A stretch of 64,000 nucleotides of DNA, from positions 64,001-128,000 of the IMG/VR virus record IMGVR_UViG_3300008267_000033, one strand, 5' to 3'. The stretch comes from a virus. The notes under the pieces were generated by a model. The model searched no databases. It saw only the letters and a list, made by a program, of their open reading frames with translations, and was not told where the DNA came from. Below, one piece after another: positions 14,350 to 41,383 of the stretch. Each line of letters starts with the position of its first letter. The first letter of the stretch is position 1. The translations under genes and the position numbers were made by a program.

Positions 14350-16530
14350 CTAAGGTAGGTGTGATCGGTTGAGTGATTCGTTCAGGCCTTGAATCACACG
14401 TTGTATTTGTTTGAGTTTTAGATAGTTCTGTTCAGCGTCACGGGCTGCATAGTAGGCCTGTCCGTCTGCACGTTCGTAGTTGGGATCTCTATTGAGTTCG
14501 GCTCTACGTACCAGTTCATCAATGTTGGGGTACTTTGCTGTCAAGTCACGTTGCATTTTTTCAGCATCTTGTGCAGGTGGTGTGTATGGTTGGCGTCTAG
14601 CATCTGCACTGGCCAGGCCTTTGGTTCTGTTGGCAATGGTTCGATCGGCAGCAGCGACTTTTGTAGGATCATCACGGTCAAAGAATCGGTTGGTCTGAGC
14701 CATGGCCCGACTCATCATGGCTTTTTTACCATAGTCGCCTAGGCTGACTTCTGACACACCTTGTTTTCGCGAGTCGACATACGCTTTGTATTCTTTTTGT
14801 GCTGCTTGATGCACTGTATGATTTGTAGTGAAATCTTTATACTTGTCGCCTTGCGTCAGTACCCATGTGGCAAAGTCAAACCACTCGACCCCGGTATCAT
14901 TGTTTGCCTCTGCCACACCTTGCTCCGCAGTGACCACAGGTTTGCCACTTTTTCCTGTGTTGGCACCAAGTCCAGACACTTGGCCTTTGGTACCACGGCC
15001 ACCGGCTGCACCAATGTGTGCGGAACCTTGCCAACGTTCGCCTTTGCGTGGTTTGGCTGGTTTGAGTCGTTGTACTTGGCCACCACGTGCTAGGAATGCT
15101 GCCACAGCGTCATCGTCTTCCGCCATGCCTTGCTCTTTTTTGACAACAAAAACTATGTTTTGAATTCCAGTATTGGGGTCAGTGTATGTGCTCTTGAATA
15201 CTTTGCCGCCGTGTTGTTTAGCGTGATCAAATGCTTCTCGCTTGTTGTCAAATCTATTGGCAGGCGGACTGATCATTGGACTGGCTTCCTCTGCCAGGGA
15301 ACCTTTTGCTGCAATCTTTTGAGTTTCTGGTCCAACTTTGGCATAGCTATTCTTTGGATCATAGATACCAACTTTTCCACTTCTATCAGTGGCAATAGTA
15401 GCACCGTTGATCATTTTTTGTGTTGCAAATCTAGCTTCAGGATAACGATTCAATACTGATTCTTTCCATCTTTCTAATGACACAGCCATCAGTGGTTTTT
15501 GTGAGTTCATTGCCGAAGGTCTGGATGATGCCACTGCCCCGGCATTTTGTGGTACTGATTGTGGTCTGGGTTTTCCTGGCATGTAAACAGATCCGGACGT
15601 TACACCACCGGTTCGTTGTATGCCAGTGGCCTGTTCAGGATCTCTTACTATACTAACTTTTTCTTTAATAGCCAGTGGTTTGTTGGGTTTTGGCTCAACG
15701 TCAACTATATCATCGTTATTATTAGGCTTTGGTGGCTTAGTAGGAGCAGATAATTGCTGACTGGTGTGCCATTGATTTGCTTGTGGTCTAATTGGCTCGC
15801 CTGTATCTGGGTCAAAATTGGCCTGTGGGCTAGGTTGGGGTGCTGGTTCATCCTGTAGTTCTGATTCAGGTTTAGCTTTTTCTCTTTCTGCTTGACGCAT
15901 ATTGAATTCAGCTTTCATCTTATTCAATTCATGTGTGTCAGCATGAAGAATCTTTTCCATGTCTTGTTGGTGACCCATCTGTAACTTACGCAGATCATGC
16001 AAGTATTCTTTTTCAATCTTGGCTATTTCATGTTTGCGTTCAGCTTCGGTGTTGGCTTTTTCCCAAGCAAATCGTTCCATCTCCATTTTTTCTTTATGAA
16101 GTTGTTGACGCTGTGCTTCAAAGTCTTGTTTGGCCTGACGTTGTAATCCTCTTCGGTCAGATGCACTCATAGTTAATTCATCTGCCTGATCTAATTCTTT
16201 TACTTTTGCGGCATGTAGTATATCGTCAAGCTCTTCGCTACTCCAGCCATCCCATGTATACTGGCCGTGCCCTTCTTTATCTGACCACTTGTATTGACGA
16301 AACGGCGTCTTAAATCCGGCTTGTTGCAATGCTTTAGTTTTTTGGTTTGCATCCATCTCATCCCAACCCTGCAAGGCAGAATGGTTGACACCTTCCGCTA
16401 CACCTTGTTCATCAAGCCCGCGAGATTTGCGCCACCTGCGAATACTTTTGCCCTGATCACGTTTGGATCCAAGATCGCCAATGGCCTCCGCCGCGAATTT
16501 TTTGTTGTTGAATAAATCGTTGATGATCAT
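14350..16530 (-). CDS. Putative capsid-packaged polyprotein with four QGVAE motifs
   Basis: 726 residues of unknown function. The N-terminus MIINDLFNNKKFAAEA resembles a capsid-targeting peptide ending in an A-A-E/A site. EQGVAE-type motifs occur at residues 41-46, 466-471 (EQGMAE), 536-541 and 589-594 (KQGVSE) and divide the protein into modules. Residues 120-220 are a long charged coiled coil (QRQQLHKEKMEMERFAWE), followed by a Pro/Gln/Asn-rich linker (220-340). After that come a beta segment with NGATIATDRSGKVGIYDP and basic Gly-rich pieces (KPAKPRKGERW). The mix of coiled coil, disorder and basic patches fits an internal head or scaffold-core protein. It is separated from the next gene upstream by 2 bases. 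Confidence 0.6.
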   Translation of the reverse strand: MIINDLFNNKKFAAEAIGDLGSKRDQGKSIRRWRKSRGLDEQGVAEGVNHSALQGWDEMDANQKTKALQQAGFKTPFRQYKWSDKEGHGQYTWDGWSSEELDDILHAAKVKELDQADELTMSASDRRGLQRQAKQDFEAQRQQLHKEKMEMERFAWEKANTEAERKHEIAKIEKEYLHDLRKLQMGHQQDMEKILHADTHELNKMKAEFNMRQAEREKAKPESELQDEPAPQPSPQANFDPDTGEPIRPQANQWHTSQQLSAPTKPPKPNNNDDIVDVEPKPNKPLAIKEKVSIVRDPEQATGIQRTGGVTSGSVYMPGKPRPQSVPQNAGAVASSRPSAMNSQKPLMAVSLERWKESVLNRYPEARFATQKMINGATIATDRSGKVGIYDPKNSYAKVGPETQKIAAKGSLAEEASPMISPPANRFDNKREAFDHAKQHGGKVFKSTYTDPNTGIQNIVFVVKKEQGMAEDDDAVAAFLARGGQVQRLKPAKPRKGERWQGSAHIGAAGGRGTKGQVSGLGANTGKSGKPVVTAEQGVAEANNDTGVEWFDFATWVLTQGDKYKDFTTNHTVHQAAQKEYKAYVDSRKQGVSEVSLGDYGKKAMMSRAMAQTNRFFDRDDPTKVAAADRTIANRTKGLASADARRQPYTPPAQDAEKMQRDLTAKYPNIDELVRRAELNRDPNYERADGQAYYAARDAEQNYLKLKQIQRVIQGLNESLNRSHLP
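14749..14766 (-). repeat. QGVAE repeat copy, KQGVSE
   Basis: Codons AAA CAA GGT GTG TCA GAA at residues 589-594 of the 726-residue protein. This is the only copy with Ser in place of Ala. Confidence 0.75.
14908..14925 (-). repeat. QGVAE repeat copy, EQGVAE
   Basis: Codons GAG CAA GGT GTG GCA GAG at residues 536-541 of the 726-residue protein, at the border between a Gly-rich basic segment and an aromatic module. Confidence 0.8.
15118..15135 (-). repeat. QGVAE repeat copy, EQGMAE
   Basis: Codons GAG CAA GGC ATG GCG GAA at residues 466-471 of the 726-residue protein, followed by an acidic DDD stretch. Confidence 0.8.
16393..16410 (-). repeat. QGVAE repeat copy, EQGVAE
   Basis: Codons GAA CAA GGT GTA GCG GAA at residues 41-46 of the 726-residue protein, closing a very basic N-terminal segment (RRWRKSRG). 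Confidence 0.8.
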
Positions 16531-16532
16531 GA

Positions 16533-17204
16533 TTATCGTTCTTCTATGTAATCTGTGTTGCCGTTGCGTTGCTGTGCTTGACGACGAGCCTGATACAACT
16601 TCACTGCTATACCGGCATCATCCAGGCTGCGAAAGCGACTGGGCAAGGTCTTGCCGCCACGACGCAGTTCATATCCTTGGTCATCATTGCCACAACATTC
16701 CAAGGCCACACCGTCAGCCATTTCAAATGTGGCTACAGGTGCTTGTGGTGCGCCAAGTTTGTTGTCCACACCTAGTTCAGCAGCATGTGCCACTTCAGTA
16801 TCGCCCGGGTCACTGGGTCCTTGCATGGCAGCAGGATCTGTATCTATTTCTTCTTCAACTTCGCCACGTGCCACAGCGTCCTGTGCTTTGTCTTTCAAGT
16901 CACGGTCAACACGCACCTTCTTTTCCAAGCGATCCAGGTATTGTGTAAGGTCTTTCTTGACCTTGCTGATCATGTCTTCTTCAATCTCGGCCATTGCTTC
17001 TTCAAGAGCAGTGCGACGAGGCTCTGCACTATCGCCCACCATGTAGCCGTCCATGGGATGAGCAGGATCTTTTTTTGCACCCAGCGCACGAATATGCTTG
17101 GGCTTGAACAGTGCAGGCAACTGAGGTACTTTTTGTTGTGCAGGGCTCAACCGGCCCTCCACTGTGGCCAGCCGATCTAGGATTGATCTAATGTCGTTGC
17201 TCAT
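16533..17204 (-). CDS. Acidic coiled-coil phage protein, possible head-core component
   Basis: 223 residues starting MSNDIRSIL at 17204, where ATG overlaps the dps stop as ATGA; a longer frame to 17324 is rejected. Residues 65-125 form a charged helix (ALEEAMAEIEEDMISKVKKD), followed by an acidic linker. The C-terminal 50-residue module contains ECCGNDDQGYELRRGGK and FRSLDDAGIAVKLYQARR. No enzyme motif is visible. Its coupling to dps and position next to the 726-residue protein suggest the same expression class. Confidence 0.6.
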   Translation of the reverse strand: MSNDIRSILDRLATVEGRLSPAQQKVPQLPALFKPKHIRALGAKKDPAHPMDGYMVGDSAEPRRTALEEAMAEIEEDMISKVKKDLTQYLDRLEKKVRVDRDLKDKAQDAVARGEVEEEIDTDPAAMQGPSDPGDTEVAHAAELGVDNKLGAPQAPVATFEMADGVALECCGNDDQGYELRRGGKTLPSRFRSLDDAGIAVKLYQARRQAQQRNGNTDYIEER

Positions 17205-17641
17205 GCTCGTTGGTCTTTCAAATAACTGGTCAACTGCCATTTGTATTTGCCATGCTGGCTGAGTCGTTGAGACAAAAAGTCTGCAATGCCCTGTTGATTT
17301 TCTTCTGTGGCCGACTCGAAACACATGTTCAGCAGGTCTATCATTTGATCATTGTTGGCCAGCAGTTCTTCAAGCATGAGTCGGGCACGTGGTACCTTGG
17401 TCTGCCCCATGATCTGTGTTAGTTCACTGTAGCGTTCCAAGCTGCCGGGCGCATATTCGCCCAGATATCTGATGTATTCGGCAGTGGGATCCAAGGCCGA
17501 AAACGCATCTTCATAAATTTTTTGCAGGAACTTGTGCAGCTCGCCAAAGTCAGGACCTTCCACATTCCAGTGAAAATTGTGTGCCTTGAGATAGTAGGCA
17601 AAATTACTGGCTAGTAGAATTTTTAAACTGTCCGCGAGCAT
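17201..17641 (-). CDS. dps: Dps-like ferritin family protein
   Basis: 146 residues. HNFHWNVEG and ELHKFL are diagnostic, and the spacing H24-H36-D51-E55 equals the H31-H43-D58-E62 ferroxidase centre of bacterial Dps. Dps dodecamers oxidise and store iron with peroxide and can shield DNA; in a phage it might limit oxidative damage during infection. It is a little shorter than typical Dps (about 155-165) and lacks a long Lys-rich N-terminal tail, so DNA binding is less certain. Its start lies inside the preceding small gene (38-base overlap). Confidence 0.85.
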   Translation of the reverse strand: MLADSLKILLASNFAYYLKAHNFHWNVEGPDFGELHKFLQKIYEDAFSALDPTAEYIRYLGEYAPGSLERYSELTQIMGQTKVPRARLMLEELLANNDQMIDLLNMCFESATEENQQGIADFLSQRLSQHGKYKWQLTSYLKDQRA

Positions 17642-17822
17642 TATTATTCCTCTTGTATTCTTTAGGGGTATTCGGGGTTGGATCCGAATCTGTTGTATAT
17701 TTACCTGACAACAAGGAACCGCCAGATCTTGACACCATGCCCAAAGGTTGACTCACAGTGGCAATACCACCAGCACAACTGGCGCCTACTGATGCTGATT
17801 CTGCTATTTCATGCCAACGCAT
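17604..17822 (-). CDS. Small putative capsid-targeted protein
   Basis: 72 residues. The N-terminus [13 protein letters not shown] fits a capsid-targeting peptide with an I-A-E/S cleavage site. Next comes SCAGGIATVSQPLG, a Gly/Ser/Ala strand seen in many small phage proteins, and a basic, Asn/Thr-rich tail. Removal of the first 8 residues by a prohead protease would leave a small basic internal protein. GGAG precedes the ATG. A GGTAAATA box inside it could feed dps. Confidence 0.55.
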   Translation of the reverse strand: MRWHEIAESASVGASCAGGIATVSQPLGMVSRSGGSLLSGKYTTDSDPTPNTPKEYKRNNNARGQFKNSTSQ

Positions 17823-18114
17823 CTGATATCTCCAAACTTGGGTTGCCTTGATAATTTATTATCTGTCCTGCCCCAGTGACAACTCTGTAATTGCGCACTT
17901 TAATGCAGCCATTAGTTTCATCCACAGTTTCAAACACAATGGGATATATGCCGGGTTGAGCCTGTATCTGAAACGACTCTTCAAGATAGCAGTTGTTCCA
18001 TATCCAGGTGCGTTCTGCAAACAGTTCATTGTTTACATAAGCACGATAACGAAATGGCTGCACTTGCACCTCGGCAGTGACATCGCACTCTACTTGAACA
18101 AAATATTTTTGCAT
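17809..18114 (-). CDS. Small beta-rich phage protein, unknown function
   Basis: 101 residues from the ATG at 18114; longer frames are rejected because a late promoter box lies just upstream of this ATG. Alternating hydrophobic strands ([40 protein letters not shown]) suggest a beta-sandwich like a carbohydrate-binding or virion decoration domain. It resembles 32270-32704 in general character. No Shine-Dalgarno is seen. Confidence 0.6.
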
Positions 18115-23309: not shown

Positions 23310-23666
23310 TTATTTTCCTGCCACTGCCAAGCCAGCGCCTTTGTTGAAGCTGGGGCTCCATGAATTGGCTTGACGCAGGCCTCGACGTTTTGACCAGTCA
23401 TATCCTGCACGATGTCCTGAACAGTCTTTGGTGCATTCAGATCCCAGGAAGCTGAGTTCTCGCAGTTGATCACGGGTCCACTTGTCAGGAATCACACCGT
23501 GTTTGGCCACAAACTTGTCATGCAATTGCTTGCCAGTAATGCCGTGGTCACGAGCAATGGTTTGCATCATGTGGTCAATTGCACTGTAGCTTTTGGGATC
23601 ATCAAGATCTTTTTCCAAGTCTTCTACTGCATCTTCTTTCAAATGTACAAACTCTTGTGCTCTCAT
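23310..23666 (-). CDS. Small basic phage protein, possible packaged cargo
   Basis: 118 residues. The N-terminus MRAQEFVHLKEDAVEDLE is an acidic amphipathic peptide that could serve as a capsid-targeting sequence. The C-terminus has CTKDCSGHRAGYDWSKRRG and SWSPSFNKGAGLAV, a basic conserved module I associate with phage virion-internal proteins. It overlaps the 458-residue motif-bearing gene by 4 bases. No enzyme motif. Confidence 0.55.
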   Translation of the reverse strand: MRAQEFVHLKEDAVEDLEKDLDDPKSYSAIDHMMQTIARDHGITGKQLHDKFVAKHGVIPDKWTRDQLRELSFLGSECTKDCSGHRAGYDWSKRRGLRQANSWSPSFNKGAGLAVAGK

Positions 23667-25039
23667 TTTTTAGGTTGAACTGCTGTGGGCATGTTGCGAT
23701 ACTGTCGCCGGGCAGGATCGTACACAGTCTTCATGGGACCAAGTCCGGCCAGTTTTTTTACTCTGGCAACCATGTCATCGTATTCATCATCATAGTCAAC
23801 TTCTTTTGGGTCACGATAGTCAGCACCCTTTTGTTGCTCGCCTTCCTCTACACCTGGTTGTTTTTGATCTTGCTGTTGTGCCCATTGAGCAATTTTTCCA
23901 AAAAGTGTGTCAGGAACACCAGAATCCTTAGCAGCCTTTGGATCTCTAATATCAACTACGTTGATGGTTCTATCGGCCAATGGGCCGCTTGCTTGAATAG
24001 GGCCACCTGATGCAATTGTTGCGGCACCTGTATATTTTTTCTCTGGATCATTTAGTCTTTGATCTAATCCCAATTGTTTAGCGGCTGCAGGAGCCAAGGG
24101 TTTTATATCAATAAATGATGCTGAATTACTTGCAGTAGATAAATCTTGGTTGCGACGCCAATTGGCTGCGACGTATGTACCATTGGCCAATCTAACATAA
24201 GTGGTCACTGGTGCAAACATATCTAATTCATTTAAGTTATCTTCCGCCACATCTTGTTCTCTCACACTACTGCGGAAAAGTCTGGCATCATTTGCATCGT
24301 GTTTGCCGCGTTCTAATCCTTTTTCCCACTCGTCGTATTTGCGAGCTTCTCGTGTGGCACTGTAAGGATTGTCCTTGATGGTCTTGCGTTCTTGGTAGGC
24401 TCTACGGCCCAGTTCGTATGCCACACCCACACCGGCCAGTTCATACTCTTCCGCCACACCTTGCTCTCTGACGCTAAGTTTATCAGCAGGATTGCCACCA
24501 CCAAACATATTGCCGAAAGCATCACGGGCACGTTGTTGAGTTTGTTTTTGCTGCTCTTTGCGATCTGCGGTCTTTTGTTTATTAGTGCCCTGTTTGATAG
24601 TTGTCATCATTTTGTCAAAAGGTTTATCACCGGTAGCCTCCGCCACACCTTGTTTCAAATAGCCCCATTCGTCCTTGCTTGTACAGTCACGCTTGGCAAT
24701 GTCTCTACCTTTAAGTTGATCTTCTCTGCGCTTGTCGCCGGCGGCACGTAGTTTAACAACCTTGCCATCATCTTTATTAGCAAGACGACTTGCGGTATTG
24801 ACCATGGCATTGCTTTTGTCTTCCGCCACGCTTTCTGATTTGTTGCCATAGTTGCCAGCACCTTTTTTGCGGCACTGTACCAAGCGTCCGGATGCATAGG
24901 CCGACGGCCATACCTTGGCACTTGCTTTGACTTTGTGATAGCAGGCGTCTTTCTTTTCAGCCAGGATCAAATCACTGAAACTGATGCCACCGCATTCGGG
25001 GCACTGTTGTGGGGCTTCAAAAAGTTCGTCTATGATCAT
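23663..25039 (-). CDS. Putative capsid-packaged polyprotein with four QGVAE motifs
   Basis: 458 residues. The start MIIDELFEAPQQ is a near-ideal T4-type capsid-targeting peptide (L-F-E/A). A CPECGG element precedes a basic module (residues 30-60, KKDACYHKVK ... VWPSAYASGRLVQCRKKG) that recurs in phage proteins. Motifs SESVAE (68-73), KQGVAE (129-134), EQGVAE (192-197) and EQDVAE (261-266) split the rest, with a degenerate PGVEE near 398. The piece after residue 267 is beta-rich (TTYVRLANGTYVAANWRR). The C-terminal region is acidic then basic. Best reading: an internal head protein cut into several small peptides. Confidence 0.6.
   Translation of the reverse strand: MIIDELFEAPQQCPECGGISFSDLILAEKKDACYHKVKASAKVWPSAYASGRLVQCRKKGAGNYGNKSESVAEDKSNAMVNTASRLANKDDGKVVKLRAAGDKRREDQLKGRDIAKRDCTSKDEWGYLKQGVAEATGDKPFDKMMTTIKQGTNKQKTADRKEQQKQTQQRARDAFGNMFGGGNPADKLSVREQGVAEEYELAGVGVAYELGRRAYQERKTIKDNPYSATREARKYDEWEKGLERGKHDANDARLFRSSVREQDVAEDNLNELDMFAPVTTYVRLANGTYVAANWRRNQDLSTASNSASFIDIKPLAPAAAKQLGLDQRLNDPEKKYTGAATIASGGPIQASGPLADRTINVVDIRDPKAAKDSGVPDTLFGKIAQWAQQQDQKQPGVEEGEQQKGADYRDPKEVDYDDEYDDMVARVKKLAGLGPMKTVYDPARRQYRNMPTAVQPKK
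24242..24259 (-). repeat. QGVAE repeat copy, EQDVAE
   Basis: Codons GAA CAA GAT GTG GCG GAA at residues 261-266 of the 458-residue protein, marking the start of its beta-rich module. Confidence 0.8.
24449..24466 (-). repeat. QGVAE repeat copy, EQGVAE
   Basis: Codons GAG CAA GGT GTG GCG GAA at residues 192-197 of the 458-residue protein; this copy equals the consensus at every base. Confidence 0.85.
24638..24655 (-). repeat. QGVAE repeat copy, KQGVAE
   Basis: Codons AAA CAA GGT GTG GCG GAG at residues 129-134 of the 458-residue protein, before a Lys/Gln-rich helix. Confidence 0.8.
24821..24838 (-). repeat. QGVAE repeat copy, SESVAE
   Basis: Codons TCA GAA AGC GTG GCG GAA at residues 68-73 of the 458-residue protein. 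Only the last four codons follow the consensus, directly after the basic VWPSAYASG module. Confidence 0.65.
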
Positions 25040-26049: not shown

Positions 26050-27213
26050 TCAGTGAAACATTAAAAATTGGTTGGCCACGTCCAGTCGGCTTGCACCCAA
26101 ATCGCCATGACCTGCAGGGAACACCACAACGTTCCATTTGGGAGCAGGCCCTTCGGGTATGCGATTCATTTCGTCATATGTGATCACAGTGTTGGGATCA
26201 ATTTTGTACTTGGCACCCAGATCCTGGCGGAACTGTTGCCAGGCGTCTGCGCTTTTTACCTGTGTGCGTCCTTTTTCGTCTTTCACATACTTGCCCTTGG
26301 CATCGGTCACAAACAACTCACGGAACATGTCTTTGGGCAGGGTCACAGCGTCTTTCACATGCCGGCCGGCATCTCGTTGTAGTTGAACTGTTTTGACTTC
26401 GCGACTTTGTGCACCTGGTGAAAACTGTTTGACCACGTTGTCCGGCGTGTCAGGGTCTGTAACTATTTGCCCCATCTTGGTGTAGAAGTAAAATTTCACA
26501 TCAGGATTGTTCCGGGCCACATCCATCATCAAGTTGTAGTATTCTTTTGAGAAGAAGTCACCAGCGTCATGTATGCGCACCAGTAGTTTGATGCCATTCT
26601 TGCTGGCCAATGCCGCGGCTTTTTTGACTTCGCTGTCGAACTTCTCCATGTAGTCTGACGGATGATTAACCAGGAAGTTTAGTGCCTGTGCCGCACTCAT
26701 TGAGCTGGCTGGGAACATCACATAGCCGCCTTTTCTGGCATAGCAGTAGGTCTGGCATTCGCCAGCACCGGGGCAGGTGATCACTTCCACAAACTCACCA
26801 GTTTCTTCATCCACCACAATGCCACTCAGGGCTGGCAAGGTCAAGTCATATGTGATGGCGCCTTCCTCTTTGCTCTTGGCCATTTTGGCATTGGTGCCCA
26901 GGATCTGTCTTGGCGGCTGCATGATCTGACTTTTTAAATCGTCTAGGTCCCACTCAGTACCACCGTCATCTCGAGTGATGGCCTTGATATTGCTGCCGTG
27001 TATGATGGGCTTGAATCGGTCAGCCTTGGTCTTGGTACCAGTTTTGATACGAGTTGCATAGTCTTGCATGTCTTGGGCGGACATAGACCGTTGTGGTGCA
27101 TCCAGTTTGAGTGCTTCGTCTGTGGCACCTTGTTCCACATTCAATACTTTGGCAGGAAATCCACCCAGGGTTCGGCCACGTTCAGCAGCTTCTACAATTT
27201 GTCTTATTCTCAT
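26050..27213 (-). CDS. GP88-family protein with capsid-targeting-like N-terminus
   Basis: 387 residues. The N-terminus MRIRQIVEAAERG carries an I-V-E/A site. CPGAGECQTYCYA (C147, C153, C157) followed by RIHDAGDFFS and KFYFYTKMG is the signature of the GP88 family of phage proteins, whose function is unknown but whose Cys pattern and strand order recall a metal- or cluster-binding barrel. Residues 26-33 read VEQGATDE, a possible degenerate QGVAE copy. It is coupled to the 1129-residue gene by a 4-base overlap. Confidence 0.7.
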   Translation of the reverse strand: MRIRQIVEAAERGRTLGGFPAKVLNVEQGATDEALKLDAPQRSMSAQDMQDYATRIKTGTKTKADRFKPIIHGSNIKAITRDDGGTEWDLDDLKSQIMQPPRQILGTNAKMAKSKEEGAITYDLTLPALSGIVVDEETGEFVEVITCPGAGECQTYCYARKGGYVMFPASSMSAAQALNFLVNHPSDYMEKFDSEVKKAAALASKNGIKLLVRIHDAGDFFSKEYYNLMMDVARNNPDVKFYFYTKMGQIVTDPDTPDNVVKQFSPGAQSREVKTVQLQRDAGRHVKDAVTLPKDMFRELFVTDAKGKYVKDEKGRTQVKSADAWQQFRQDLGAKYKIDPNTVITYDEMNRIPEGPAPKWNVVVFPAGHGDLGASRLDVANQFLMFH

Positions 27214-30200
27214 TTTCTTTTGGCCTTTGCTCTTCCGGCTTTCATGTTGGCCAGCCAGTGGGCCATGCGTTGCTTTTCACCTGACGAATTCTTTGCTGTC
27301 TTGCGCAAACTGCTGACTGACGCTTTGGTATTTACTCCTGAGCGTTTGGCTAGACCTTTGCGCCCAGGATTCTTGCCATCGGCAAAGTTTTCCGTGACAC
27401 CTTGCTCGTGTAGTCCAAATGCGTCACGAATGATATTTAACAACTCGCTTACACTTGCGTCTGTAGTGGGCAATACGTCTTTGAAAGCATCATCCAAATA
27501 AGGGTCGCCGTCTTCTACAGTACCTAACGCATAGCTAAACATGCCATTACCTTGATTGGCGATCAACATTATGTACCATTGATCATCTGTTTCTTGTCCT
27601 TTGGCAGTAAACAAGAAAGTATCTTCTCCCTCACGTTTACCGTTCCAACCAGTAGCTTTCATTGCACTGTTAATTTTGTTAACAACTTCTGGCCATGATA
27701 AAACATTTCCCAGTGCTGCTTCTGTTACACTTTTGTTGGCATTTCTTAATATCTCAATGACTTTCTCACCGGCTGTTTTTATTGCTTGATCAAGTCCCAT
27801 CTCCTTGGCTTGTTTCTCAGTTTTACCCAAGAAAGGTCGGAGCATACTTTTAGCAACATCTAACCTGGCCTTGACCTCTGCAGGATCTCCGTAACGTATT
27901 TGTTGTCGTTGTCGTTCTCTATCATAGTCTCCGTTGTACATGATGGCATCAGCCAACTCTTGTATATCGTATTGTCTGGCTTTTACTTTTGGATTACGAT
28001 TGACAAACATCTTGTGTTGTCGTATAATCCTTGGATCTAGTACTACACCTTGTGTTGGTTCATTATAAGCAATCCAGCCCGCACCGGGATCATATACACT
28101 GGTGAATCCCAAATCACGCAATACTTTGTTCCAACGAACGATATTGGTTTCATCGTTTGTGCCTAGTCTACTCAAGCAGTCGTAAATCATCCAGTATGGC
28201 GTATCATCATACAATGAATCTGGTTCATCTAATACTTGTTGTATTATTTTTTCAGGGCAGTATTGACTCAGGGCTTGACGTAATTGAGCAGGATCGACTT
28301 GGGTTTGCTGAGTCATTTCATTCGAACGGTCGTATTGAAACAACTGCATATAGGGCATGTTATCTCCCCATGGCAGTGGTTGATAACGGTTGACCATCTG
28401 TATAAAGTATTCCAATGGATAAAAGTAAATACCCTTGGGAGTGTCTTCACTGATGCCCACTTGCGGATTGATCCCCAACTTGGGCTCAGCAGTCATGCTA
28501 ACACCCCAGTTTTCTTGGTCTCTGATATCTTCAGCAAATGCAGCCAGCTCATATTTACCCATCCCATATTTTTTATTCTGATCTGGGTTTTTACGTGCTT
28601 CCGCCATGCCTTGCTTGTTGGACCAAAGCAATTGGCCTTCTTCTTGTGCTATGAGGTGTATGTTGTATCCTGGATGGGTGGGTTGTATGTCATGGTTGTC
28701 AAAGTGAGAAGATAGTTTTTGTAATATTCTTACCACGCCAAGATACTGATCACCCACAAGATCATCAGGTACCACTACCAAGATATCAGTGTCACTGTTT
28801 TTACGATGTTTTCCTGTAGCACGACTGCCATGGAACCAAATTTCTTGTGCTATGGGCATGACTTTGAGTATGGCATCAACCACTGGCTGGCCTGGTTGTT
28901 TGCCCTCCGCCACGCCTTCTTTGACCACAGCAGGCACAGTTTCATCGCCCAGCAAGTTCAACAAAAATGTTCTGTGATGGCCGTCTTGCAAGTGATACGA
29001 GCCATCAGGCAGGGCAGACACTGTGATGGGATTCTTTTGTACAAATTGTCTTAGACGTTGTTGTGCCGCAGGGTCAGCTTTCAATGCATCCACCAGTTGT
29101 CTCATGCTCATGTCTGGTGACACTTGCATGCCAGCAGCGTGGGTCAACACATCTGCTGCTTGCTCAATGTTCACCCCTTGTGTGCCAATGGCACCGTTGG
29201 CTCTGCGCACATTAGCAATGGGAAAATTCTCAATGTCTTCACGCAGGTTCACAGTCTTCATCAACAGTCCAGGCTCGCCATTGCGACCTGTGTTCAAGGC
29301 CAGTTTGTTGGCTTCTTTGCCAGTCTGTCCAGGTTTGATATCCACACTCAGAGCCATGGCATATTGTGGCATGGCTGCTTCACGCTTGTTCTTGGGAATG
29401 TACCCTGAGGCGCCTTCTTCCAATGAATCACGGGCAAAATGTTCAGGATGAGAGTTGGCCCAGTCACGCATGATGATGCCTGCTCTGGCGTTGGCATCAT
29501 TTTCCCACCGACTGCCAGTTTCGCCTGCGTCATCTGGTAACTGACCATGTTGTTGATTTTGTGAGCAGTGAACTAATTCATGTGCCACTGTGCGCAACAC
29601 GTCCATGACATGGCGATTGGGCATGCTTACATTTAGTGTGTGTGATTCTGGATCGTAACGTCCAAAACTTTGATTGCGTTCGCTCCACTCAGGATCAGTG
29701 TGCAAATGAATTTCAGGTGCAGGATCTATGCCCAGCTCTGTTGTGACGTGTTTAATAAAGTCCTGCACAATGTTGTCATCAGATTCAGAGTCTTCCAAGA
29801 AAGACTTGGTACTGGCAGCAACACCATCCGACGTGCTGTAAGGCTGACTCTGCATGCCTTCACCGAAGCCGTAACGAAACCGTTGTCGAGGTGCTTCACG
29901 CAGACTCAGTTTGCGATCTTGTGCGGCTCTACGTGCGTCCCACAGCAGTTTTATACAACCACTATTGCGCAAGATTTTAAACGCAAGATTTTCACAGCCA
30001 AACTCGCCTTGTTGTTCAAGTCCTGCCTGCCGCATGGCCTTGATTTTGTCGGCCAAGGTGGCCATTTTAGATTGATCTCCTGAACGCACAGCATCGTGAA
30101 TACGTGCGTCCAAGTCTGCAACTTTGTCACGCACACACGCATCATCTACCCTGGCACGTTTGCGTTGGGGTATGGAGATCCAGCTATTGTGTTGCACTGA

Positions 30201-30599
30201 ATAAATGCCCAGGCTGATGTGTGGTTGATCAGCAGGCTGAACATACAGTTCTACATCGGCACCACCAATTTTTATGTTGTGCTCGTTGTTGTATTGATAT
30301 TTCTTGGCTGAAAACAGTTCCTGATACACAGGATCATCAGGCATTGTGACCACAATGTGCAGGTCAATATCTGAGTTTTTTGTATAAGAGTAGGCTGCGT
30401 TTGAGCCTGATATGGTGATGTCTTCGACGTCAAGATCTTTGACACCCAAAAATTCTTGAAAGTCTTCAGCAATGGTGAGTAGTCGTTCACGCACTTCAGG
30501 AAGCAACTGCTCGTCTCGCCCCCAGATTCTGGGATTGAGACGGCGGTGAAACTTTACTGCGTCGCCAAGATTGTAAGAGTCCAACTCATGAATGTTCAT
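27210..30599 (-). CDS. Giant modular putative capsid cargo polyprotein (nucleotidyltransferase, metallopeptidase-like, ParB-like)
   Basis: 1129 residues. Residues 55-130 are a nucleotidyltransferase-like domain (GSNAAYSYTKNSDIDL, D77/D79). Residues 290-400 have a zincin-like HELVH (H340-E341-H344) with ENDAN downstream. Residues 515-557 resemble a ParB/sulfiredoxin-type domain (LQDGHHRTFLL). KEGVAE (560-565) then leads to a second nucleotidyltransferase (FHGSRATG, D603/D605), and KQGMAE (662-667) to a long region including LGFTSVYDPGAGWIAYNEPTQGV. After HEQGVTEN (motif at 1065-1070) comes a basic tail (DGKNPGRKGLAKRSG ... MAHWLANMKAGR). Putative cleavage at the motifs would release four parts. 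It could be a toxin-antitoxin-like or host-takeover effector set; function is inferred. Confidence 0.6.
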   Translation of the reverse strand: MNIHELDSYNLGDAVKFHRRLNPRIWGRDEQLLPEVRERLLTIAEDFQEFLGVKDLDVEDITISGSNAAYSYTKNSDIDLHIVVTMPDDPVYQELFSAKKYQYNNEHNIKIGGADVELYVQPADQPHISLGIYSVQHNSWISIPQRKRARVDDACVRDKVADLDARIHDAVRSGDQSKMATLADKIKAMRQAGLEQQGEFGCENLAFKILRNSGCIKLLWDARRAAQDRKLSLREAPRQRFRYGFGEGMQSQPYSTSDGVAASTKSFLEDSESDDNIVQDFIKHVTTELGIDPAPEIHLHTDPEWSERNQSFGRYDPESHTLNVSMPNRHVMDVLRTVAHELVHCSQNQQHGQLPDDAGETGSRWENDANARAGIIMRDWANSHPEHFARDSLEEGASGYIPKNKREAAMPQYAMALSVDIKPGQTGKEANKLALNTGRNGEPGLLMKTVNLREDIENFPIANVRRANGAIGTQGVNIEQAADVLTHAAGMQVSPDMSMRQLVDALKADPAAQQRLRQFVQKNPITVSALPDGSYHLQDGHHRTFLLNLLGDETVPAVVKEGVAEGKQPGQPVVDAILKVMPIAQEIWFHGSRATGKHRKNSDTDILVVVPDDLVGDQYLGVVRILQKLSSHFDNHDIQPTHPGYNIHLIAQEEGQLLWSNKQGMAEARKNPDQNKKYGMGKYELAAFAEDIRDQENWGVSMTAEPKLGINPQVGISEDTPKGIYFYPLEYFIQMVNRYQPLPWGDNMPYMQLFQYDRSNEMTQQTQVDPAQLRQALSQYCPEKIIQQVLDEPDSLYDDTPYWMIYDCLSRLGTNDETNIVRWNKVLRDLGFTSVYDPGAGWIAYNEPTQGVVLDPRIIRQHKMFVNRNPKVKARQYDIQELADAIMYNGDYDRERQRQQIRYGDPAEVKARLDVAKSMLRPFLGKTEKQAKEMGLDQAIKTAGEKVIEILRNANKSVTEAALGNVLSWPEVVNKINSAMKATGWNGKREGEDTFLFTAKGQETDDQWYIMLIANQGNGMFSYALGTVEDGDPYLDDAFKDVLPTTDASVSELLNIIRDAFGLHEQGVTENFADGKNPGRKGLAKRSGVNTKASVSSLRKTAKNSSGEKQRMAHWLANMKAGRAKAKRK
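27390..27407 (-). repeat. QGVAE repeat copy, EQGVTE
   Basis: Codons GAG CAA GGT GTC ACG GAA at residues 1065-1070 of the 1129-residue protein, exactly before its basic C-terminal module. Confidence 0.8.
28599..28616 (-). repeat. QGVAE repeat copy, KQGMAE
   Basis: Codons AAG CAA GGC ATG GCG GAA at residues 662-667 of the 1129-residue protein, at the end of the second nucleotidyltransferase module. Confidence 0.8.
28905..28922 (-). repeat. QGVAE repeat copy, KEGVAE
   Basis: Codons AAA GAA GGC GTG GCG GAG at residues 560-565 of the 1129-residue protein, between the ParB-like and second nucleotidyltransferase modules. Confidence 0.8.
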
Positions 30600-31606: not shown

Positions 31607-32254
31607 TTACGACCGACGTTCTTCCACGTAGTCTTCATAAGTGGCAGCCCAGCCTTGGTTCTCAGCAACTTCTGTGCCAATTGCTGTGTCTAGCATTTTG
31701 ACCACATTAGCGGCCAACTTGGGATTGCTTTGTGTCTTGGGATACAAGCTCATTATCAGGGCAGTTTTTCGTTTTTCATTCAGCTGAGGCCATGCTGCGC
31801 GGATTTCTGAGGCTGATGTCATGCCAGGTCCAAACTCCACAGTGGGCAAATAGGCCATGTAACCTTGTTGACTCATGGGTGCTGTGGAGTTTTTGTTGTA
31901 GGGCTGTAGATATGAAGGTTCACCGTTCTTTTTGACACCGCCGGGTCGGGGAGGTTTGTCTGCATCCTTTTGACTGCGAACAAAGATCAACTGTGTGTCT
32001 TCAGCATTGTATGGTGCTGTGATCTCAGTGGCTTGAAAAGGGCTTTTGACTTGCATGAATCTGCCTTTGTCTACCCCGGCTAACTGTGCTAGTTTTTCTT
32101 TGATCTGAAAAGGAAAAGGCCGAGCGCTGGTGTCGTTGGTAGCAGCCACATACACATCAGCGCCGGGAAATGCTGCTTTCGCTGACTGATACAAGGCAGC
32201 ATGTCCTGCGTGAAAAGGGTGAAAGCCACCGGGCATTATAACAACTTGTTTCAT
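31607..32254 (-). CDS. Nucleotidyltransferase-fold protein (HxGH, NMNAT/cytidylyltransferase-like)
   Basis: 215 residues. GGFHPFHAGHAALY contains the H15-A-G-H18 motif of the nucleotidylyltransferase superfamily, and TSASEIRAAW is like the C-terminal S-x-S-x-x-R region that contacts triphosphate. Such enzymes adenylate or cytidylate NMN, phosphopantetheine or polyols. The middle (PRPGGVKKNGEPSYLQPY) is unusual. The protein may act in NAD supply during infection or in activated-sugar formation; I cannot choose. Confidence 0.7.
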   Translation of the reverse strand: MKQVVIMPGGFHPFHAGHAALYQSAKAAFPGADVYVAATNDTSARPFPFQIKEKLAQLAGVDKGRFMQVKSPFQATEITAPYNAEDTQLIFVRSQKDADKPPRPGGVKKNGEPSYLQPYNKNSTAPMSQQGYMAYLPTVEFGPGMTSASEIRAAWPQLNEKRKTALIMSLYPKTQSNPKLAANVVKMLDTAIGTEVAENQGWAATYEDYVEERRS

Positions 32255-37317: not shown

Positions 37318-37764
37318 TTAGAGTTCTGGGTAGTCGGGCTCAGGTGGTGCTTTTTTTCCGCCGAAGCCTGTGGTAACTGCTGCTGGAGCAGGTGCGAAAC
37401 TGGGTTCAATTTTTGTGCCGGCTGGTGCAGAGACAAAGCTCATGCTGGGCGCAGGTGTTGGCAACGGCGTGCCTGGTGCTGTGGGATTCACAGCGGCTCC
37501 GGCCAGTTTTTCTTGTGTGCGACCAAATGCAGCAATGCCTAGCACTGCGCCCATGGCAATGTGGAATAGTCCTGCGCCTTGCAAGGTGAGTGGCTGCCAC
37601 TGTGTGATTGAGGTGTTTTGAAACATCTGCAACATGGCCCACAGCACTGGGAATATGGCCATGTCCAGTGTACAGATACCCATGTACATCCATCCCATAG
37701 CTGGGCGCCATTTTTTCTGCATCCAATCTTCGTCTTTCTTTTCTGGTTTTTGTTCTTGTGACAT
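37318..37764 (-). CDS. Putative holin
   Basis: 148 residues. It starts with a charged cytoplasmic segment (KPEKKDEDWMQKKWRPAMGWMY) and has two to three hydrophobic helices (GICTLDMAIFPVLWAML, GAGLFHIAMGAVLGIAAFG). The KWRP-x3-W start resembles 3TM holins of phage and gene-transfer-agent type. A long Pro/Ala-rich tail (residues 90-148) is disordered. It should form membrane lesions letting the endolysin at 39744-40358 reach peptidoglycan. A late promoter and AAAGGAG precede it. Confidence 0.7.
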   Translation of the reverse strand: MSQEQKPEKKDEDWMQKKWRPAMGWMYMGICTLDMAIFPVLWAMLQMFQNTSITQWQPLTLQGAGLFHIAMGAVLGIAAFGRTQEKLAGAAVNPTAPGTPLPTPAPSMSFVSAPAGTKIEPSFAPAPAAVTTGFGGKKAPPEPDYPEL

Positions 37765-37782
37765 GTGGGGCTCCTTTAGGAA

Positions 37783-37790
37783 TATTTATA
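37783..37790 (-). promoter_or_regulatory. T4-type late promoter TATAAATA for the holin
   Basis: Perfect TATAAATA on the minus strand, 18 bases before the holin ATG (37764), with AAAGGAG between. Confidence 0.7.
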
Positions 37791-37835
37791 ACTTTTGGGT
37801 TAGATAACTGCTGTGTAATATTTGTGCAATATTGT

Positions 37836-37843
37836 TTTAAATA
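37836..37843 (+). promoter_or_regulatory. Late-type promoter box TTTAAATA, 5 nt before ATG
   Basis: Plus-strand TTTAAATA, then ATAAT, then the ATG at 37849. It is divergent from the holin late promoter. Confidence 0.4.
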
Positions 37844-37848
37844 ATAAT

Positions 37849-37992
37849 ATGGCTAAGTCTCAATCTGACCAACTGTACGAATATCTTTCCATGGTAAAAC
37901 GTCCTTGGCTGTTTCTTGTGTCAGTGTTTAGCATGTTCCTAGTTATCTCTGCCATAGTGTTGAGTGCTGTGTGGTTTTATGTTCGCCACTAA
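37849..37992 (+). CDS. 47-residue single-pass membrane protein
   Basis: Begins MAKSQSDQLYEYLSMVKRPW, a polar N-terminal segment, followed by one hydrophobic helix (LFLVSVFSMFLVISAIVLSA) and a short tail WFYVRH. It is divergent from the holin and convergent with the next membrane protein, ending on a stop shared with it. Its size and topology fit an antiholin or pinholin-type regulator, but this is inference. No Shine-Dalgarno is visible. Confidence 0.55.
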   Translation: MAKSQSDQLYEYLSMVKRPWLFLVSVFSMFLVISAIVLSAVWFYVRH

Positions 37993-38324
37993 TGTTTTCT
38001 AGGGTGTTTGACAAACCATTGCTCTAGTTGTTCTAAATCCAAATCACCGTCAAAGTGTTTTTTGAACCCCCGATAGAATCGTATTTTTTCTGGGTCGCCT
38101 GCAAAGCGAGCCATGACTTGCTCTTCTTCCATGTGTGCTTGACGAAACTCTAGCAATAGTTCTTGATATGAATAATACGCAAACAACACAAAGCAAGTCA
38201 CAAACAATACTATGGCAAAGAACGCATTCAAGTATGCATGAAACACAATCAGCACCGCAGGTACGGCAAACACAGCCAGTATGGTGCCCAAGATCAACAA
38301 CAAGGTTTTAACGACTGGACTCAT
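37989..38324 (-). CDS. Membrane protein with two predicted helices
   Basis: 111 residues if started at MSPVVK (38324); an upstream ATG at 38393 would add 23 residues lying inside the preceding gene. Two long hydrophobic segments (TLLLILGTILAVFAVPAVLIV and NAFFAIVLFVTCFVLFAYYSY) are followed by a charged cytoplasmic tail (ELLLEFRQAHMEEEQ). Function unknown; it is part of the membrane/lysis block. Confidence 0.6.
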   Translation of the reverse strand: MSPVVKTLLLILGTILAVFAVPAVLIVFHAYLNAFFAIVLFVTCFVLFAYYSYQELLLEFRQAHMEEEQVMARFAGDPEKIRFYRGFKKHFDGDLDLEQLEQWFVKHPRKH

Positions 38325-39132
38325 TTTGCTCAGACTCACGACGACGCTGTTCCAAGAACTCTTGGTATTCTTGCAATCGTCGTTGACGTTCAAACCACTC
38401 TTGTTTTTGCACTGCTTCTAGTGTGTCTCTGTATCTGGTGTCAGTCACACCGCCCCAACGGCGTTGTGCATCATACGCAATGTACATGAACATGCCCATC
38501 ACCGCAAACATCACCACCACAGCGCCAATGCCCAGGGCAATTTCAAACTGATATTTCTGCATGCGTTGGCGTTTGCGGTGGGCTTTTTCAAGTTCATATG
38601 ACATGAGCACTTTTTGTTCTTTGCCCAGGTCCTTGGTCATGCTTTCCACTTCGGTGAACAGCGCACCCAGTTCAGGTGGGCTTTGGTAGATCATGAGTTC
38701 GCGCAGTTCCTTGCCCATGGCCTCCAGTTGCTTTTTCATCAGCACACGTTTCAGCGCACGTTTTGCTAGACTGTCACCACCTGAATACACTTCAGTTTTT
38801 GATCGTTTTTCTTCGTCTTCCAGCACTGCTAGACATTTGAAATAGTTGTCGTAGTAGGCGCCCAGGGCATCGCCAATCTCTGTGTAGATATTGGTGTTTT
38901 CCTCACTGCGTTTGTTTAGGTCTCGTACCCGGGTTTTTTCTTCGTTGAGTTGTTTGACCGCAGCATCAGGCACTGGCCGGCCATCGTACTTTTTGTGAAA
39001 CTGATCGTCAAGATCTCGAAGTACGCCTTTAACATCGCCCGCGGCACTTTTGATGTCCTTGTACAGTTGACATCCTTTTTTCACGGCTGCAACAGCCGTG
39101 TTGGCCAAGGCAAATAGTGTTAGTGGATCCAT
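38308..39132 (-). CDS. Coiled-coil, single-pass membrane phage protein
   Basis: 274 residues. N-terminal helix LFALANTAVAAVKKGCQLYKD, long charged coiled coils (60-190), one strong membrane helix near residue 205 (IALGIGAVVVMFAVMGMFMYIA), and a very basic C-terminal helix (ERQRRLQEYQEFLEQRRRESEQ). The arrangement is seen in T4-like freshwater phages without assigned function. It has no enzymatic motif. It could organise the infection-time membrane or act in lysis timing. Confidence 0.6.
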   Translation of the reverse strand: MDPLTLFALANTAVAAVKKGCQLYKDIKSAAGDVKGVLRDLDDQFHKKYDGRPVPDAAVKQLNEEKTRVRDLNKRSEENTNIYTEIGDALGAYYDNYFKCLAVLEDEEKRSKTEVYSGGDSLAKRALKRVLMKKQLEAMGKELRELMIYQSPPELGALFTEVESMTKDLGKEQKVLMSYELEKAHRKRQRMQKYQFEIALGIGAVVVMFAVMGMFMYIAYDAQRRWGGVTDTRYRDTLEAVQKQEWFERQRRLQEYQEFLEQRRRESEQNESSR

Positions 39133-39167
39133 TGTTATTGCTCATGCCACTACGCTGGTGGCTTGAG

Positions 39168-39175
39168 TATTTAAC
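39168..39175 (-). promoter_or_regulatory. Late-type promoter box GTTAAATA
   Basis: Minus-strand GTTAAATA, 35 bases upstream of the ATG at 39132, in the 70-base gap between two membrane-protein genes. Confidence 0.4.
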
Positions 39176-39202
39176 AGATCCTTGTGCGAGATCTAGTGGG
39201 TG

Positions 39203-39742
39203 TTACACAAACGGTATCCACAGCCAAATACCTTGGCTCAACAGCACTGTGCCAATCACAGCCACCACTTCGCTGATGCGATACATGGTGTTGTTCACAC
39301 TCAAAATGCTGGCACTCAACAGCACAATAGCCAGTTGAAATGCCAGGGACGCAAAGGTCAACCATGGTGTGTGGCGTGTGGCTTCATCACGTGCGGCTTC
39401 GTGGGCCTGTGCCTTTTGCAATAGTTCACGCTTGCCTTCCGCCTTCACAGGGTCTGATTCGTAACGTGCAATCTTGGCCTCCAGTAGTGCTCTGCGCTGG
39501 GGATCACGTGTTTCTTCCAGTTGTCCTTCAGCAATGCTTTGTTTGATGCTTTTGCTTTGATAGAACGCATAGGTGTCTGTGGCTTTGAGCATGTTCTTTA
39601 GCACAGCACCTGAGTAGTTGTTTGAAAAGTATGTGGTCACGGCCATGAACAGGGCCATGATCACAATCACAAGTCCGGCTTTGTCTTTGATTGCTGCTTC
39701 ACGTTCTGAACGTGATAAGGGTTTTGTTTCTGCTTCTGCCAT
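39203..39742 (-). CDS. DUF4337-like membrane protein
   Basis: 179 residues starting MAEAETKPLS at 39742 (GGGAG upstream); a longer frame to 39814 lies in the endolysin gene and is rejected. A helix near residue 25-42 (AGLVIVIMALFMAVTTYF), the YAFYQSKSIKQ segment typical of DUF4337, a charged coil, and two C-terminal membrane helices. Function unknown. Confidence 0.65.
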   Translation of the reverse strand: MAEAETKPLSRSEREAAIKDKAGLVIVIMALFMAVTTYFSNNYSGAVLKNMLKATDTYAFYQSKSIKQSIAEGQLEETRDPQRRALLEAKIARYESDPVKAEGKRELLQKAQAHEAARDEATRHTPWLTFASLAFQLAIVLLSASILSVNNTMYRISEVVAVIGTVLLSQGIWLWIPFV

Positions 39743-39743
39743 G

Positions 39744-40358
39744 TCATGCTCCCATAATGTGTAAGGCGTGTTCGTAATGCTTGATACGATCTTCAAGACC
39801 AATGTAACCACCATTGATCTTTTTAGTCATCTTCTTGATGTCGCCGGCATCTGCTTCCACATTCAAGTTGTTGCTTTCCCAGAACCAGCAGGCTGATTGT
39901 GCGGCACCTTCAAATGTACCTAGGTATTCTGCGGCTTCTTCAGCGGAGATTTCCAAGCTGGCAGCAAAGTTTTCATAGTTGCTCTTGCCGGTGAGTTGAA
40001 TCAGTCCACGACCGCAGTAGCGATATCCGTCACCTGAGTGTTCGTCACCATTGCCCATGCGACTTGCATACACTCGGTTGGCAATCATTGCAGGCTTCTT
40101 GGCATAGGCCTGTGCTAGTTCTGCTGTGGGGAAATATTTGCCAAAAATCTTTTGTAGGCTTTCTGCCTTGTAATTAAGATTTTCTTTGATAAATCTAAAA
40201 TTTCCTGACTCATGTGCGCACTGTGCAATAAAAGCAGCAATGCGACGAGGTGTGTTGATCTCATAATCTGGCAGTAACTGGTCCAAGGCTTCCAACCAGT
40301 GTTCAGCATGGGGTATACCATGTACCATTTGTTTTAGTTGTCCGAGTGTTAGTTCCAT
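39744..40358 (-). CDS. Endolysin, GH19 chitinase-like glycosidase
   Basis: 204 residues with the GH19 catalytic core: AAFIAQCAHESGNF supplies the general acid Glu50 and FIKENLNY the second acidic residue Glu59. GDGYRYCGRGLIQLTGKSNY is the conserved substrate-groove motif. It should cleave the peptidoglycan glycan strand at the end of infection. There is no signal peptide, so release depends on the holin at 37318-37764. AAGGAG precedes the ATG. Confidence 0.92.
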   Translation of the reverse strand: MELTLGQLKQMVHGIPHAEHWLEALDQLLPDYEINTPRRIAAFIAQCAHESGNFRFIKENLNYKAESLQKIFGKYFPTAELAQAYAKKPAMIANRVYASRMGNGDEHSGDGYRYCGRGLIQLTGKSNYENFAASLEISAEEAAEYLGTFEGAAQSACWFWESNNLNVEADAGDIKKMTKKINGGYIGLEDRIKHYEHALHIMGA

Positions 40359-40367
40359 CTTGGCTCC

Positions 40368-40655
40368 TTATTTTATGTTGTTGAATATTTGTTGTTGTTT
40401 TTGATACCATTCAATCCAGGCATCTGTTTTGACAGCACACTCATAGTAGGTGCCGTAGTTCACAGTCACAGTCCTTGATATGTCACTTAGACGGGCATCA
40501 TCAGGAATTTTTTGCAGTTGTGGACAGGCCGTCATGGCCACGTTGCCCGGTGCTTCGGGGAACCGTGCTGTTACAGGTACTACTGTACTGCATCCAGTGG
40601 CAAGGAATGCCAGTATCACAAACACCACTAGAAAGAACAATTTAATCGAATGCAT
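40368..40655 (-). CDS. Outer-membrane spanin-like lipoprotein (Rz1-type)
   Basis: 95 residues from the ATG at 40655, which overlaps the preceding stop as TGATG. Signal peptide with lipobox LATGC (Cys22), then a Pro-containing segment and NYGTYYECAVKTDAWIEWYQ. As an o-spanin it would sit in the outer membrane and pair with the i-spanin at 41380-41838. It is longer than lambda Rz1 but similar in plan. Confidence 0.7.
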   Translation of the reverse strand: MHSIKLFFLVVFVILAFLATGCSTVVPVTARFPEAPGNVAMTACPQLQKIPDDARLSDISRTVTVNYGTYYECAVKTDAWIEWYQKQQQIFNNIK

Positions 40656-41383
40656 CAGCAGTTCCAACGACGTCGTGCTTTGCATATGGCTTTGTCAGGA
40701 GTCTTGGCACAACTGATGCTGTGCATTTTCATTTGTCCACGACTGCGGCTGCAATAACTCTTTCTACGCTTGGATGCCTTGCCACCTTTTTTGAGTTTGC
40801 CAGGTTTGGTGGTTACAGCAGTTTTTAGTTTTGAGCCAGGATTTTCTCTGCGGTAAGCATTCACAGCCTTTTGACTCATGCCATCTGTCTTGTCACGTTT
40901 GTTGGCTTTTTGCCAGTCTTCCATCACACCTTGCTGACTGTACATATCCATCAGTTGTCGAATATAGAAATTATAAAAACCACGACGGCCGTTGTATTCT
41001 CTGTCTCCAAGCACAGTCTTTAGTGCGGCTACAGCATCATTTACTTCCGAACCACGCATTATTTTTAGTGCATCCGTCACAAGTGAATCAACTTGTTGTG
41101 TGTCTTCCGCCATGTCTTGTGATTCCATGATGGGCTCTGAAGTCACAGCAAAAGCATACAGTTCATCTTCGGTGAGTGTTTCCAAATCTTCCCAGATCAC
41201 TTCAGCATCCACACCGTTGTGTTGGGCCAGACGTTCAATGATGGATTCGATAAGATCAAACTCTTCCTCAAGTTCTACACTTTCGTTCTTGGGCTTCTTG
41301 CCAGCTTTTTTCATTGCAATGGCCGTTGCAGCCTGTTGTGGATGTGCCGACTTGGCTTCTGCTAAGATTTCATTAATTTTCAT
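40655..41383 (-). CDS. Putative capsid-packaged protein with two QGVAE-like motifs
   Basis: 242 residues. MKINEILAEAKSAH is almost identical in pattern to the T4 internal-protein targeting peptide, with an I-L-A-E/A site. Motifs SQDMAE (88-93) and QQGVME (150-155) separate an acidic first half (ELEEEFDLIESIIERL, EDLETLTEDELYAF), a middle helix bundle, and a very basic tail (KKGGKASKRRKSYCSRSRG ... CKARRRWNC) that recurs in phages. An acidic pro-part and basic DNA-contacting tail fit a core protein cut on maturation. It lies, oddly, between the two spanin genes. Confidence 0.65.
   Translation of the reverse strand: MKINEILAEAKSAHPQQAATAIAMKKAGKKPKNESVELEEEFDLIESIIERLAQHNGVDAEVIWEDLETLTEDELYAFAVTSEPIMESQDMAEDTQQVDSLVTDALKIMRGSEVNDAVAALKTVLGDREYNGRRGFYNFYIRQLMDMYSQQGVMEDWQKANKRDKTDGMSQKAVNAYRRENPGSKLKTAVTTKPGKLKKGGKASKRRKSYCSRSRGQMKMHSISCAKTPDKAICKARRRWNC
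40919..40936 (-). repeat. QGVAE repeat copy, QQGVME
   Basis: Codons CAG CAA GGT GTG ATG GAA at residues 150-155 of the 242-residue protein; Met replaces Ala before the last Glu. It precedes the basic C-terminal module. Confidence 0.7.
41105..41122 (-). repeat. QGVAE repeat copy, SQDMAE
   Basis: Codons TCA CAA GAC ATG GCG GAA at residues 88-93 of the 242-residue protein; followed by an Asp as in several other copies. Confidence 0.7.

Follow-up and report, generated by a model that had tools for sequence, protein, structure and literature searches.

What is the role of a short peptide motif that recurs at the borders between very different protein modules of one virus? The question is raised by a 64,000-nucleotide stretch of viral DNA (hereafter the window), which comprises bases 64001-128000 of the 146,212-base IMG/VR virus record IMGVR_UViG_3300008267_000033. 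Four minus-strand open reading frames (ORFs) of this window, 14350-16530, 23663-25039, 27210-30599 and 40655-41383, carry copies of [E/K]QG[V/M]AE or looser forms of it. An original prediction had proposed that they encode unrelated polyproteins, which are packaged in the prohead and cut at the motif.

Packaging and cutting are supported here as a prediction by the register that internal sites share with N-terminal leaders, the fixed residues at P1 and P3 (the first and third positions before the cut), agreement with the gp21 rule, Peptidase_S77 and Gp23 genes in relatives, and homologs in virions of the cyanophage S-CREM2. What the original prediction overlooked is that the QG form of the motif is conserved as DNA, and that cassettes have been inserted with breakpoints in this DNA word. 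We consider it likely that the four ORFs encode leader-targeted cargo chains, cut in the prohead and joined at a DNA seam. They would be internal-head (ejected) polyproteins of a T4-like phage, and a leader of about nine residues, equivalent to the capsid-targeting sequence (CTS) of T4, would bring each chain into the prohead core. A gp21-type phage protease would cut after the Glu of [I/L/V/M]-x-E, both behind the leader and between modules. This would release, within the head, enzymes (nucleotidyltransferase, metallopeptidase-like, ParB-like) as well as small DNA-binding-like pieces that are basic or rich in cysteine, all of which would accompany the DNA to the next host. The near-fixed DNA word of the commonest internal site, QG[V/M]AE, would double as an in-frame recombination seam. 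Each cassette would comprise a module together with the site that ends it, so that the chain would always remain readable and cuttable, whether cassettes are added, removed or swapped at the word.

Results

Motif copies

The strict form [EK]QG[VM]AE occurs six times in the window, always on the minus strand (three copies in 14350-16530, two in 23663-25039, one in 27210-30599, none in 40655-41383), and the relaxed form Q[GD][VMI]xE eleven times (4, 3, 2 and 2 copies in the same order). Shuffled versions of the four ORFs contain on average 0.0004 strict and 0.19 relaxed copies. Over all called ORFs of the 146-kb record, composition predicts 0.005 strict copies, and called ORFs other than these four hold only three relaxed matches, all weak. 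The thirteen clear copies counted originally do exist as sites, but this number is reached only with two degenerate copies, EGVAE at 28905-28919 and either ESVAE at 24821-24835 or GVEE at 23843-23854.

Related loci (L-numbered below) were gathered using three window proteins as queries. Leaving aside one shared domain, no enriched 5-mer is commoner in these relatives than QGVAE, which occurs at 186 times the expectation and lies between modules that recur in other orders. The ends of BLAST alignments concentrate about threefold at the motif compared with random, which bears out the proposed location at module borders. The proteins are, however, only partly unrelated, since their modules are drawn from a common pool: a cassette of one ORF sits in a relative's homolog of another ORF.

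Leaders and internal sites

Many small genes near the chains open with a nine-residue leader, M[KR]xxE[FI][ILV]xE, which is followed by a module. Among 173 leaders in related loci, 161 have I, L or V at P3, and the residue behind the cut (P1') is mostly A, G or S; the leader pattern is found at 163 of 688 N-terminal M[KR] versus 9 of 2233 internal ones. T4 ipIII, as read from NC_000866, starts with MKTYQEFIAE/A (slashes mark cuts, here and below known or predicted), and T4 gp23 has FLTE/A at 65/66. In the window, leaders ending in aliphatic-x-Glu are present in 40655-41383 and in the neighbouring ORFs at 25036 and 26050.

The same module can follow a leader in one locus (MRAQEFVAE/GKQPGKPVVDA in L019) and the motif in another (LKQGVAE/GKQPGQPVVDA in L011). 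Of 606 leader-to-internal alignments, 136 have an offset of exactly 0 and 28.9% one of at most two residues, versus 2.1% for random positions. When mature parts alone were used as queries, with leaders stripped to remove any pull from them, [ILVMF]xE stood exactly before the projected first residue in 197 of 495 distinct internal contexts, versus 1.75% at random. Three module types with many upstream partners have E at P1 in 31/31, 44/44 and 38/38 contexts, with a nearly always aliphatic P3; these two are the sole fixed residues ahead of modules in varied contexts.

These data bear on two alternative roles of the motif. If it were a recombination seam or linker only, modules would be exchanged in frame, no proteolysis would occur and the chains would stay long and multidomain. 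However, 149 of the 197 exact junctions have an [ILVMF]xE that is not of the QG or QD type, with P3 and P1 fixed and the other positions varying, and a DNA seam would not predict a register shared with N-terminal leaders. We therefore regard a seam without cleavage as unlikely, despite the DNA-level evidence given below. Alternatively, QGVAE could be a docking peptide for a head core or scaffold protein, its position between modules merely reflecting spacing. Docking would likewise place the proteins in the head, and short repeated motifs presumably often bind partners; yet QG is dispensable at most junctions whereas P3 and P1 are not, and the motif is also found as the final residues of an ORF, which makes this role extremely improbable.

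Leaders and [ILVM]xE junctions also occur elsewhere in the related loci. Tandem small genes with MRAREF-type leaders are found at G003:C1:263121-263878 and in L106 (6367-9090), the latter with a common C-terminal VSPVKxFKGY motif that marks a possible further head-cargo family. In loci of cultured cyanophages (L007-L009, L270, L271), [ILVM]xE stands before most of the KDACYxKVK and KSAKDKGYSLHDWF cysteine modules; this suggests a wider spread of chained head cargo than of the QGVAE word.

The DNA word

The QG form is conserved as CAAGG(T/C)(G/A)TGGCGGAA. In 72 distinct QG[VM]AE copies, from loci not picked by the word, the motif is encoded by CAA GGT/GGC GTG/ATG GCG GAA, in two linked forms, GGT-GTG and GGC-ATG. 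The Ala codon is GCG in 60 of the 72, whereas the share of GCG is 7.2% among Ala codons overall and 10% in [ILVM]AE lacking QG; pure codon bias was therefore rejected. Conservation falls off sharply beyond about 16-18 nt in a set partly chosen by the word. Of 429 word occurrences with at most two mismatches, 419 share one reading frame; loci were partly chosen by the word, which biases the class without mismatches and, to a lesser degree, those with one or two. Given this common frame, an antisense or intergenic element was rejected, and so was a ribosome-binding or start-site function of AAGG..ATG/GTG, since long ORFs run through the word in frame. When 84,980 bacterial and archaeal genomes were scanned for an exact 21-nt match, two hits came up, about chance level, and a host origin was dismissed; in the IMG/VR collection, the word has at least 120 matches, in large phages. 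The literature searched gave no match for the peptide QGVAEG, and none joining "capsid targeting sequence" with metagenomes.

Two natural comparisons of empty and filled sites show cassettes inserted at the word. L011 carries a 182-nt cassette at the site that lies at 28905-28919 in the window, and this cassette is 94% identical to window positions 24637-24836, in another ORF. The nucleotidyltransferase (NTase) cassette adjoining the same site is 97% identical to L011, its flanks 82-86%. In the other comparison, L083 has an extra 801-nt cassette between two word copies, with flanks 91-95% identical, where in L078 and L188 the ORF end reads CAAGGTGTGGC(A/G)GAA TAA. At the protein level, only 16 of 187 paired insertions fall at motif junctions versus a 4.6% null, a noisy comparison that we do not use as main evidence. 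The QD sites at 24242-24256 (CAAGATGTGGCGGAA) and 41105-41119 (CAAGACATGGCGGAA) have the DNA word with one or two changes and are thus probably diverged copies of the QG word. ORFs that end exactly in QGVAE plus stop were seen in L078 (5947-7371), L083 (5182-7371) and L188 (near 2900), which looks like the loss of a cassette or an unfilled slot at the 3' end.

Conservation at the DNA level is not accounted for by proteolysis alone. It is here that the seam-only alternative has its strength: the 15-nt word is conserved beyond codon use, and breakpoints lie inside it. In the model that combines cleavage with a seam, recombination may be the cause of this conservation, and joints would stay readable because of the shared word and the frame-neutral cassettes. 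The word could be kept uniform by its use as recombination microhomology, or a dedicated enzyme could act on it. Going further, the 15-18-bp word might be an active, dedicated exchange site for a phage nuclease or recombinase, with integron-style slots through which large aquatic phages gain, lose and trade head-cargo cassettes of module plus cut site; this we consider doubtful.

Protease, capsid and virion proteins

T4 gp21 cleaves after L/I-x-E, and for IPIII the ten N-terminal residues are enough to bring about packaging (PMC9026906). Of the 16 related records, four encode Peptidase_S77, and these four also encode Gp23; their head cluster contains portal, gp67-like, gp68-like, protease, scaffold and capsid protein in the order of T4. 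The capsid proteins of these relatives share, at the amino end, an LxE (LKE/N, LME/T, LAE/N) just ahead of the ASAG/ATAG start of the mature-like part, and the gp68-like protein of relative G003 contains EEQGMSE. The prohead protease gene expected from the original prediction is thus present in relatives though absent from the window's own record, and the expected motif copies in head genes are found in part, as EEQGMSE and as LxE at the presumed major capsid protein (MCP) site.

Could the chains instead be cut by a protease of their own? The product of 27210-30599 contains an embedded zincin-like, metallopeptidase-like domain (HExxH; HELVH at residues 340-344), and embedded metallopeptidases are the usual proposal for polyvalent proteins (PMC5512222). 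The site rule, however, equals the rule for gp21 and for the sites in the MCP and the leaders of the same phages, so cutting by this domain rather than a gp21 homolog appears very unlikely.

S-CREM2 is a cultured T4-like cyanophage. Among the proteins that mass spectrometry found in its purified virions are those of ORFs 137, 156 and 160, listed as hypothetical (PMC10665884, Table 3). Homologs in the window are 40655 and 23310 for gp137, 27210 for gp156, and 23663 and 25036 for gp160. Shared modules of gp137 and gp160 again follow directly on such residues (SMNE, EISE and LSE), and MKNFSSFLTE/A is the start of the cytidylyltransferase gp154, also a virion protein. These data support head localisation of the module families, not cleavage. 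Packaging in the window's own phage is predicted, and with such a head localisation the cargo would be injected into the host with the DNA at infection.

Organisation of the ORFs

ORF 40655-41383 has a T4-like leader:
40655..41383, minus: ORF of 242 residues with leader, acidic helical module, VDSLVTD module and basic C-terminal DUF6321 module (Pfam PF19846, E=1.1e-8); homolog of S-CREM2 virion protein gp137
41357..41383, minus: CTS-like leader MKINEILAE, then A; predicted cut after E9; layout as in T4 ipIII
41105..41119, minus: predicted site QDMAE/D, DNA CAAGACATGGCGGAA
40919..40933, minus: predicted site QGVME/DWQK before the DUF6321 module (E at P1 and aliphatic P3 in 31/31 contexts)

ORF 27210-30599 is the longest chain. 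Its residues comprise an NTase-like region (about 14-232), the HExxH metallopeptidase-like region (H340-H344), a ParB-like region (about 511-563), a Pol-beta NTase module (566-662), further modules and an NFADGK basic tail (1071-1129).
27210..30599, minus: ORF of 1129 residues, multidomain chain (Pfam PF01909, E=1.7e-11; phrog_36119; ParB-like PHROGs); homolog of S-CREM2 virion protein gp156
28905..28919, minus: predicted site EGVAE/GKQPG; "empty" seam compared with L011, which carries the 182-nt cassette
28599..28613, minus: predicted site QGMAE/ARKN, DNA CAAGGCATGGCGGAA; identity to L011 ends here
27390..27404, minus: predicted site QGVTE/NFADGK before the basic tail (tail contexts: E at P1 in 44/44, aliphatic P3 in 38)
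26050..27213, minus: adjoining ORF with leader MRIRQIVE/A

An AlphaFold model of the 27210-30599 product has a mean predicted local distance difference test score of 54 and is confident at about 150-230 and 280-380. All three sites fall where confidence is low, as would be the case for linkers but also for a poor model. Chains of relatives also include amidoligase, GH19, GNAT, LysM and deaminase domains. Nearby, a cytidylyltransferase-like ORF (31607-32254, minus) ends in GTEVAE/NQGWAATYEDYVEERRS and, unlike S-CREM2 gp154, is without a CTS-like leader.

The two remaining chains and their neighbouring ORFs are as follows:
23663..25039, minus: ORF of 458 residues with leader-like MIIDELFE/A, KKDACYHKVK cysteine module and several short modules; homolog of S-CREM2 virion protein gp160
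24638..24836, minus: mobile cassette ESVAE/DKSN...WGYLKQGVAE/; present at 94% DNA identity in L011, in a different gene
24638..24652, minus: predicted site QGVAE/ATG, DNA CAAGGTGTGGCGGAG
24449..24463, minus: predicted site QGVAE/EYE, DNA CAAGGTGTGGCGGAA
24242..24256, minus: predicted site QDVAE/DNL, DNA CAAGATGTGGCGGAA
25036..25389, minus: adjoining ORF with leader MTYKEILE/A and CWxGY cysteine module; matches S-CREM2 virion protein gp160
23310..23666, minus: small adjoining ORF with leader-like MRAQEFVHLKE/D; weak homology to S-CREM2 virion protein gp137
14350..16530, minus: ORF of 726 residues with leader-like MIINDLF.., coiled-coil and basic modules and four sites
16393..16407, minus: predicted site QGVAE/GVN, DNA CAAGGTGTAGCGGAA
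15118..15132, minus: predicted site QGMAE/DDD, DNA CAAGGCATGGCGGAA
14908..14922, minus: predicted site QGVAE/ANN, DNA CAAGGTGTGGCAGAG; L011 similarity stops here
14749..14763, minus: predicted site QGVSE/VSLGDY; similarity to L012, L014 and L019 stops here

A whole-protein search with the 14350-16530 product gave no match among cultured phages. Among the products of the record, which is dense in minus-strand genes, are a family-B DNA polymerase and a ClpB-like AAA protein. The phage looks T4-like and aquatic.

Discussion

Several observations weigh against prohead-cut cargo chains with a DNA seam. Cleavage is predicted for all these sites and observed at none. Peptidase_S77, Gp23, a scaffold gene and a relative's capsid protein were not found on the window's own 146-kb record, which we therefore treat as a fragment of a larger genome, and co-occurrence with head genes thus rests on the relatives. 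The S-CREM2 proteins detected in virions are without the QG motif, and their detection is silent on cuts. About 60% of internal contexts have no exact site, partly owing to alignment slip, and the starts of ORFs 14350 and 27210 are only leader-like, a strict xE being absent around residue 9. The use of V and M at P3 goes beyond the L/I-x-E of T4 gp21, though leaders of these phages use V too. Finally, the independent comparisons between empty and filled sites number only two.

In T4, a short leader loads proteins into the head and the head protease removes it; here, this rule is seemingly extended to cargo chains with built-in cut sites, which are widespread in large phages of IMG/VR. If this is true, packaged cargo could be predicted from sequence alone, and many "hypothetical proteins" would resolve into mature products with defined ends. 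Such phages would possess a modular system for delivering proteins into bacteria, and how a coding DNA word persists as a recombination seam would become a testable question.

The closest known counterparts are the T4 internal proteins IPI, IPII, IPIII and Alt (PMC9026906), which like the proteins described here have a leader of 9-10 residues ending in aliphatic-x-E and the same cut-site rule. They too are small basic proteins, and a gp21-type protease and Gp23 are found in relatives of the window's phage. T4 internal proteins are, however, mostly single modules with one leader, whereas here modules are chained with several internal sites and, unlike in T4, move between leader-led genes and chains. 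The ejection proteins of the large phages phiKZ and SPN3US are likewise packaged and cut C-terminal of Glu, with multi-site propeptides, but their prohead protease cuts at S/A-x-E, a different P3 rule, and the available parts of these sources (PMC9026906, PMC5694885) report neither a repeated QGVAE word nor cassette shuffling. S-CREM2 gp137, gp156 and gp160 (PMC10665884) place homologous modules in virions, without the QGVAE word and without being described as cut or chained cargo. Polyvalent proteins (Iyer et al. 2017, PMC5512222) are similarly multidomain chains (Pol-beta NTase, zincin-like, ParB-like, acetyltransferase, deaminase) for which injection together with the DNA is proposed, and their trait of several disparate catalytic domains per chain is found in 27210-30599 (NTase, HExxH, ParB-like). 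Their release is mainly ascribed to embedded peptidases, whereas the chains described here carry a prohead-protease signature, a defined site and a cassette seam at the DNA level.

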